DNA of 64,000 nt, taken from NCBI RefSeq assembly GCF_965638725.1, contig NC_134955.1:13172316-13236315 (forward strand). The letters run 5' to 3'. This stretch comes from Aptenodytes patagonicus (lineage: Eukaryota > Chordata > Aves > Sphenisciformes > Spheniscidae). Below the pieces are notes generated by a model, which was given only the letters and a program-made list of their open reading frames with translations, did no database searches and was not told the origin of the DNA. This document shows positions 33,701-36,700 of this stretch, piece after piece. The translations under genes were made by a program, and so were the position numbers. The number at the start of each line of letters is the position of its first letter. Positions within the stretch are counted from its first letter, which is position 1.

Positions 33701-36700
33701 AATAGCTAAATCTGTATCTGGATGTATTAACCTCTTCTCATACGCACATAGGATCTATTAAGGCTTGAAGTGTTTGGTGCGTCTCAGAAGTCATAGTGAG
33801 GGAAGGATAGGGTTATGCATTTTTCTAGGCAGTGCAATATTTAAAACTTAATTTTCCCAGTATCTATTTTACATACTTTATAAACTTAATCCAGAGTTGC
33901 TTGCTTTTTTCAAGTCTCATTGATTTCAAATTGGGCATGGGTGCTTAACACCCTTGAGAATAAGGCTCATTATTGCATGTAGTAACATCAGATATGAATA
34001 TGTGTGGAGTACCCTCATAGGCCTATCCATCTAGGCCTAGTCTCTCCAGTTCCAGGAGGCATACCACATATGCTGCTTCATAAACCAGTGACCTCCATTG
34101 TGAAAGCATCTAGCTCTGTCTTGAAAGGCCACTCCACACGCTGGGGCTCTGATGATAATGTGAAGTGATTTCTGAGCAGAGTGGCCAGGGGGGTGGTGTC
34201 CTGTGAACCCAAACCCCATGGACACTCAGAACAAGTCCGTTGCTCATCTAGCTGGACTCCTCTGCCAGCCTGGTTTGACTCCGGCAAGATGCTGTTGCCC
34301 AAACAGATATTCTTATTTTTAAGCAGTAGTTCATATTGAAAGAGCTGGATAGTCATTACATGGCTTTCTCTCCATGTTGGGTCAGCCTGCCCGCTGTCTT
34401 CCCACTTGATCCTTTTCTCTCTCCAAGCTAGTTCACAACTGTAACCACCACACTGTACACAGCTTTTTCAGCTAGTTTTGCACACCCTATTACAGTGGTG
34501 GTAGCTAGTTGGACTTGTTTTTACAGTTTTCTTTCTGTTGTTGCCACGTTTTAGGAAAATCAAAATGAAATACTTGAATTGATTGGTTCAGATCAAATGG
34601 AAAAGTTTTGTTTTGCCCCAGGTTGATTTTACACAGTTCCTGCCTTTCACTGTCTCAGCCCTGTGTTTCTTCTGTGGGTGCTGTCACAGGCATAGCCTAC
34701 CATCCTGCTGACCTGCGACAGTGCACCCCTGGGGCAGCCAGTGCAAGTGGAAGACAGGAGGGAAATGGGGCCTGAAGCAGTTGGAGCGTAGCTCCAGTGC
34801 AGCTTAATGGACCTCAGATTAACACTGAGCAAAGCTGAAACAAGATGTCAGTCTTTCTTCAGTACACAGAAACTGCCAAATTGCAAAAGTCCTGAGAGCT
34901 GATCAGCTCTAATACTTGTGTAAACGTAGTCTTTGTATCACCTTGCACTTTATCTAGTAGTCTAGCTGCTGACCCCCTAATTTGGCTTTGAACCCAAAGA
35001 CACAAAATGTTAGTGACCTGATATTTTTTCTTGCTGCTAGTTAGCTGAAGTGTGGGAACGTACTATGATGGGGAATGAGAAAGTTGTGGTTTAAGTCCTA
35101 ATAAAACTTAGCAGAATGAGGAAGGACAAATAACTTGTGACTCTTGCCCCAGTCCTCAGAATCCTGAAAACCAAAAATTAGCTGAAGCTCACAGTATTTC
35201 TCAATGTGGAGGTAAGGCACAGAAACAGACCATCTGTTGCTTCTGCCCCATCTTTCTCTCCCTCTCAGAATTCAGTCACACAATGCATCTAAGAATGCCC
35301 CATGTTGAGGATCTCAGTGATGTCTGAGGAGATCTTTTTAAGTTTACTTCCTCAATACAAATGTTCAAAATTAGGCACTTTGCTAAATAATCCTGGAAGA
35401 TTTAGATTAACTCAGTTTTATTCCACAGGGAGCTCTACAATTTTACAACATGCTGTTTCAAGGCAAGTGAGGTGCAGATGATAAAGTTGTCAAGAGAGAT
35501 CTGATGGGATAAGTTCTCAATTTTGCCATAAGTGGTAGGTTTGGTTCTTGCCTGGGACAGGTTTCCTTTGAGCTCTGTTAGCTGATCTACTGTTATGCTG
35601 GACTCTGAGCAAGTTCAGGAAACCTGGAATACAGTTTTAAGGTTGAATTTGTATGGTTTTACATGTGTCAATGTAAAGTAGCATTCTGTTCAAAACAAAA
35701 ACAAAACAAAGACACCACCCCCCCCAATCCAAAAAATCCAAACCACCCCAAACTTGACGTGATCAAAATGAAGGGAAAAAGACATGTTAAGGGGAGCTAG
35801 CAGAGAGGAGATAGTCTCTAGTGAGGCCACTCAGAGCACTGATTTCTCATAGAGCCATAGAGTTTTTTGAGAGAAGGAGATTTACACTTGTCTTTCCATT
35901 GCTTCTGGGTTTCTGAAGTCAGTAGCCACTTCTCAAAATCACCTTTACTAACCTTGATTGTCTTTCCTTGTCACGGAATTGTAAATAGTGCTCTTTCCTT
36001 ACCTTATTATGAGTGCTGCAATGAAAGCCTTAATTCATTCATGTTTGTTGAGTTGCACAAAGAGTACAGGGATGAGTGTTCTATAGGAATGTTTATAAAA
36101 TGAAGAAAGGCTTGAAATGTGTGGGAGCAAATGAATGTGTGTTCTTATGAGAGCAGAAGTGATGTGTGGTGGAAAAAGTTAGAACCAAGAGCTAACACTT
36201 CCTCACTAGCTTTCATTGATAAGCTACACAGCATTGCTTAACCTGCTGTATTTTATTTTTAAGCTAAGGAGGAACACTCACTATTCCACTCGGTCTATCG
36301 GCTATAAACAAAACTCTTCATCATTGATCATGACCGGTGGTTAATGCACTGCTTGTTGTCAGTCATATATCCTGAAATGAAGCCAAGGCCAATTTAACTT
36401 CCTAACAAAACAGCTATTCACTGAGTGATTTATTTGCGCTATAAACTAAAACTAACAGTTTATTATCGTAACAGGTCTTTAAAAGGACAGAATTTTTCAG
36501 CACAGCTGAACAACTGCAACAGTGTTCTGTGCTTTTCCAGAGCTGGGTAATTATCGAATACTGGCACTGAAGCCAGTTCTTTTGTGAAAAGTTTGAAAAC
36601 CTGAATTTTTCAAAGATACCCATAAATATTGCTGGGCTTGTTAGTATTGAGGTGTGTGTTTAAGTAAAATCAGTCAGATTGAGTTAGTGCTATCTATGCA

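Follow-up and report, generated by a model that had tools for sequence, protein, structure and literature searches.

The 171-nt block at positions 35041-35211 of the window, i.e., the whole 64,000-nt stretch of Aptenodytes patagonicus DNA analysed here, is with high probability the exon of the first cysteine-rich repeat (GCC1) of SCUBE2, broken by stop codons and likely skipped, so that the protein would carry two GCC repeats and not three. The evidence supports a dead GCC1 exon that was changed by point substitutions without any insertion or deletion. The features needed to follow the argument are given below.

3333..44537, + strand: coding part of SCUBE2, with 960 codons in 22 intact exons and, in addition, the dead exon of GCC1
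16779..16868, + strand: extra 30-residue exon in the EGF5/EGF6 interval, containing an RVKRR stretch, a SCUBE2 feature
28191..28394, + strand: last spacer exon (SPe), intact, phase 1 at its end
35021..35040, + strand: acceptor region of the dead exon, AG at its end, scoring above 13 of the 21 acceptors of the gene
35041..35211, + strand: the dead exon itself (GCC1; 171 nt, phase 1-1), with stops at 35046, 35076 and 35109
35209..35217, + strand: donor of the dead exon, GAG then GTAAGG, scoring above 18 of the 21 donors of the gene
37335..37502, + strand: GCC2 exon, intact, phase 1 at its start
40133..40294, + strand: GCC3 exon, intact, with three N-glycosylation sequons
41510..42459, + strand: CUB domain, split between the exons at 41510-41707 and 42307-42459

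The window contains one entire SCUBE2 coding region on the + strand, for which a model was assembled from the sequence, one exon at a time, before being compared with database proteins. None of the 22 live exons has an internal stop, the live introns are bounded by GT/AG and the best protein matches are all named SCUBE2, the assignment to this gene being made on whole-gene orthology. Nine EGF exons are present, each open, with EGF families detected by Pfam, and the extra 30 residues encoded between EGF5 and EGF6 are those said to separate SCUBE2 from SCUBE1 in the accessible part of a review of the family (PMC10214685). The spacer is made of five exons, SPa to SPe (24776-28394), a number matching the one given there (PMC10214685). 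Further downstream, Pfam finds a single CUB stretch (PF00431) and two stretches of the GCC-type repeat (PF07699) in the window protein, the latter numbering two as well in the king penguin protein P0101 vs three in each of goose P0003 and duck P0007. As such, the window departs from the three cysteine-rich motifs of the SCUBE family, the exon of the first motif being dead; with GCC1 skipped, GCC2 would be the first cysteine-rich repeat of the protein.

Several features of the gene are recorded for their own sake. The spacer exon SPc (26322-26423) is one codon short and reads MFQ-GLEQ vs MFQEGLEQ; among the 301 listed proteins described below, the shortened motif occurs only in P0008 (Aptenodytes forsteri) and MFQEGL.Q in 29. 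The donor of SPd (27827-27835; CAG then GTTGGT) is the weakest of the 21 donors of the gene by leave-one-out score. Many bird SCUBE2 isoforms are about 805 residues long, and the 806 residues of the king penguin equal 960 minus the 154 residues of SPa-SPd; from these lengths, SPa-SPd (24776-27829) seems to be another symmetric and optional exon block. Downstream of the gene, the 19 kb at 44538-64000 show long open frames only, with no gene identified therein.

The original prediction placed a 171-base block with both splice sites inside SCUBE2, in the right position, orientation and phase, and it is indeed present at 35041-35211, with AG/GT borders, flanked by SPe, which ends at 28394, and by the GCC2 exon, which starts at 37335, both in phase 1. 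Read in its ancestral frame, i.e., with the block preceded by the phase-1 base that SPe contributes, it comprises 57 codons, of which 54 translate to residues and three are the in-frame stops that had been announced, namely TGA at 35046, TGA at 35076 and TAG at 35109. Of the conserved blocks named beforehand, GTYYDG, QNEEGQ and TCDSCP lie inside the exon, while the last G codon of CGG needs intron bases. Four of the six cysteines are kept; the two missing cysteines and the three stops were thus both counted correctly, except that one position entered both counts, one of the lost cysteines being the first stop itself.

When whole proteins were compared with the window by tblastn, the GCC1 of duck aligned to the block with 80% identity (E 9e-21), that of emu with 79% (E 4e-20) and that of crocodile with 68% (E 1e-15), all three without gaps, in agreement with the proposed GCC1 identity and decay by point mutation. 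Chance similarity was ruled out by 200 dinucleotide shuffles of the intron, on which the emu GCC1 peptide never exceeded 23.9 bits and the crocodile peptide 24.6 bits, vs 94.7 and 80.1 bits, respectively, on the real intron. An intact GCC1 copy within 28395-37334, one of the two outcomes that had been named as speaking against the proposal, was searched for and none was found: apart from the adjoining GCC2 exon, nothing GCC1-like other than the block itself scored above 19.2 bits in this interval. Reading the TGA codons as selenocysteine was likewise rejected, one TGA replacing an arginine and the third stop being a TAG; bearing on the same idea, an Rfam scan of the whole window at gathering thresholds was empty, with no RNA family reported.

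Regarding the reading frame, the exon has the properties of a cassette, since its 171 nt are divisible by three and it is in phase 1 on both sides. Upon inclusion, the message runs into a stop at codon three of the exon, vs an open frame upon skipping, where the junction between SPe and GCC2 reads through 11 residues in the open frame. Splice sites were scored with leave-one-out matrices built from the own 21 donors and 21 acceptors of SCUBE2, and the fossil donor and acceptor both proved good for this gene; splice-site breakage therefore did not kill the exon, and some level of inclusion remains compatible with such sites. Survival of the AG/GT borders is no proof of use, though, because at the level of change seen in the fossil all four bases would survive by luck alone with a probability of about 0.72.

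Besides its stops, the exon has lost constraint relative to its neighbours, as is the case for a decayed exon. The test was applied to those codons where all rows present, out of three from waterfowl and two from emu, agree, the signal-peptide exon (0/13 changed) being left out. The window differs from the waterfowl/emu state at 10 of 53 fossil codons vs 7 of 869 codons in the other exons (one-sided Fisher p 2.4e-9), and the contrast holds against SPe, GCC2 and GCC3 taken together (2/158; Fisher p 2.1e-5) as well as against the five spacer exons (4/191; Fisher p 5.5e-5). Compared with the intact bird states, the fossil has undergone at least 11 base changes. Substitution rates are in the order of 1-2e-9 per site per year; a date of 40-80 Myr obtained from at least 11 replacement changes over about 137 sites, i.e., 0.08 per site, was discarded as too rough.

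Stops lying between usable splice sites are also what would be expected of a poison exon, i.e., a block sometimes spliced in, whereby its stops would route SCUBE2 messages to decay and tune this Hedgehog-release factor. Besides a donor and an acceptor that outscore 18/21 and 13/21 sites of the gene, respectively, stops account for 3 of the 11 fossil changes vs 6-7% expected (p 0.025-0.039), so that they are somewhat over-represented and this mild excess falls outside the prediction of plain neutrality, but the exon was noticed because of its stops. Decay-based regulation is moreover put forward, in the accessible part of PMC2697156, as a viable explanation for ancient exons. On the other hand, a high degree of conservation is ascribed to poison exons in the portion available of PMC11357089, yet 10 of 53 codons have changed here, the AG/GT bases could well have survived by luck as calculated above, and the whole exon appears in no listed penguin protein, though decay targets would rarely be listed. 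Altogether, a poison exon is unlikely, and a dead exon that is skipped is the reading followed hereafter.

The distribution of GCC1 was surveyed with three protein searches, from which at most the best 120 matches of 1788, 137 and 666, respectively, were retained, giving 301 proteins. These are representatives of 90%-identity clusters, behind which other members can hide, and in each of them the segment separating the last spacer exon from GCC2 was measured. Among the 120 listed bird SCUBE2 representatives, which bear 93 species labels (one being for proteins without species name), GCC1 is found in 15 and missing from 105. Its bearers are Anser cygnoides, Cairina moschata, Anas acuta, Anas platyrhynchos, Cygnus olor and Dromaius novaehollandiae. 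The 105 others divide into 81 with a direct junction, including king penguin P0101 and Humboldt penguin P0111, and 24 with another filler; 17 of these 24 fillers match the window intron at E <= 0.01, and only that of P0008 touches the fossil, of which it includes the 3' part. With species assigned to orders, GCC1 occurs among listed birds in 2 of 24 orders, i.e., Anseriformes and Casuariiformes, the 22 orders without it including Galliformes, Struthioniformes, Rheiformes, Tinamiformes and every sampled order of Neoaves. The search targeted at GCC1 gives the same picture, waterfowl and emu being the only birds among its best 120 of 137 matches; the 17 lowest matches score below 95 bits, while the listed intact bird copies all reach at least 125 bits. 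The direct junction is present in four proteins (P0232, P0256, P0257 and P0266) that share 99.8-100% identity with Gallus models; three of them are 638 residues long with longest contigs of 2.3-3.4 kb, and they presumably derive from spliced transcripts, because such contigs are too short to hold the exons plus introns.

The original prediction saw in the dead exon a loss in the lineage of this bird. The exon is dead here, but GCC1 is absent from the proteins of most sampled birds, which suggests, at the level of listed proteins, an absence wider than the window species. Death at the DNA level is established in this window, whereas the other birds are represented by gene models, where absence can be a matter of splicing. 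Judging from these models and from the bird tree, GCC1 may have been lost at least four separate times, namely in ostrich, in rhea with tinamous, in galliforms and in Neoaves, with waterfowl and emu retaining it; this would amount to a convergent trimming from three repeats to two through the repeated decay of an already optional exon, a tentative scenario and somewhat less likely to be right than wrong.

The filler of P0008 raises the question of the 3' half of the exon being alive, with the AG of the third stop serving as acceptor and 35112-35210 remaining coding. Indeed, one segment of P0008 is 100% identical to the translated 35112-35210, and ahead of it stands the translation of 33069-33128. 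A direct join of 28394 to 35112, however, puts the sequence out of frame, with a stop as early as the third codon, and the P0008 model therefore needs the intronic exon 33069-33128, which is matched by none of the 23 other bird filler segments in the window intron. As king and Humboldt penguin proteins furthermore skip the entire block, use of the half-exon is very improbable, and the P0008 filler looks like a repair made by gene prediction. Elsewhere, the deposited A. forsteri protein agrees closely with the window: against an 891-residue version of the model it shows no mismatch over 978 columns, 130 of them gaps, and the figure of 84% (82 mismatches) obtained against the 960-residue model with composition correction off is read as the result of misplaced gaps around stretches present in one sequence. 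Least probable of all is that the exon is live and was misread in sequencing or assembly, or that a live copy exists elsewhere in the genome, given the three stops plus seven further changed codons, zero indels, no other GCC1-like block in the intron, and the listed king and Humboldt penguin proteins devoid of GCC1.

Outside birds, the 181 listed proteins, which are database models, many of them predicted, comprise 36 with a direct junction, 144 with GCC1 (139 by the script rule and 5 by reading, i.e., P0047, P0192, P0196, P0199 and P0215) and 1 unmeasurable. Intact GCC1 orthologues are available from crocodilians and turtles as well as from waterfowl and emu, again as database models of which many are predicted. 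Both forms are listed in four non-bird species, namely the tortoise Chelonoidis abingdonii, the tuatara Sphenodon punctatus, the snake Ahaetulla prasina and the wombat Vombatus ursinus, and GCC1 was therefore probably an optional cassette before it decayed. As such, in-frame skipping probably preceded the stops.

Homology, stops, differing constraint, a skip junction that stays open and the presence or absence of GCC1 in the listed proteins were all directly observed; from them we infer a course of events covering skipping in the penguin, the order of the steps and their cause. At the start, GCC1 would have been an optional cassette exon in amniotes, the skipping of which would keep the frame and remove one six-cysteine module, leaving no odd cysteine behind. 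Where the skipping form sufficed in an ancestor, the exon would have been freed from selection and gained point changes, stops included, the rest of SCUBE2 staying constrained in the meantime. Any message still including the exon would then terminate at its third codon and be a presumed target of nonsense-mediated decay.

As for the function of the protein, six cysteines are found in each of goose GCC1, emu GCC1, window GCC2 and window GCC3, and seven in crocodile GCC1. According to the accessible part of the review (PMC10214685), the CR domain is required for the secretion and surface display of SCUBE1, and surface binding appears to require glycosylation sites 679, 750, 779 and 789, any given glycan being sufficient. 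The last three of these sites (PMC10214685) share the spacing of the window GCC3 sequons, i.e., 29 and 10 residues. In zebrafish, a truncation without all CR and CUB domains is non-functional, suggesting indispensability (PMC10214685, as available); this may be taken to indicate that the region matters, the allele having removed all CR motifs and the CUB, i.e., more than GCC1 alone. Scube2 without CRD and CUB, in turn, still raised Shh release, though less (from the accessible portion of PMC12881369). The loss of a single CR motif would thus be expected to be mild in effect, and the fossil together with the intact copies of duck and emu offers a natural deletion experiment on the role of GCC1.

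Hedgehog patterning is often studied in the chicken. SCUBE2 helps release the Hedgehog signal, and the SCUBE layout in the available part of the review has three cysteine-rich motifs (PMC10214685) vs two in the listed SCUBE2 of most sampled birds, chicken included. The SCUBE2 of human, mouse and zebrafish is described therein with three cysteine-rich motifs (CR, here GCC) and one exon per CR motif (PMC10214685). The window SCUBE2 follows this layout for the signal peptide, the nine EGF exons, the 30-residue exon, the five exons of the spacer, GCC2, GCC3 and CUB, but differs from it in having two intact CR exons, the first being a fossil with three stops. The GCC1-less forms of Chelonoidis (P0026), Sphenodon (P0060), Ahaetulla (P0064) and Vombatus (P0085) show the identical in-frame junction between the last spacer exon and GCC2, except that these four species also list an intact GCC1 form, whereas the window exon is untranslatable. 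Both ends of the path from an optional exon to a dead one can be read in living species.

With poison exons (PMC2697156 and PMC11357089, both as far as accessible), the window exon shares stops between good splice sites, but it is less conserved than its neighbours. In a literature search, mostly outside subscription journals, no description of the SCUBE2 GCC1 loss was found. The nearest parallel found there, as far as the available text goes, is exon 6 of Drd2/Drd3 (PMC12198306), likewise a dispensable coding exon, skipped for one gene in some lineages and repeatedly lost in the paralogue, birds included. In that case, deletion is described for the Drd3 exon and the lineages skipping the Drd2 exon kept theirs (PMC12198306), in contrast with SCUBE2 GCC1, where the fossil is still in place and a single gene is the subject of both skipping and loss. 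The type of event, i.e., the decay of a dispensable symmetric cassette exon, is thus already known, and SCUBE2 GCC1 is a further instance of it.
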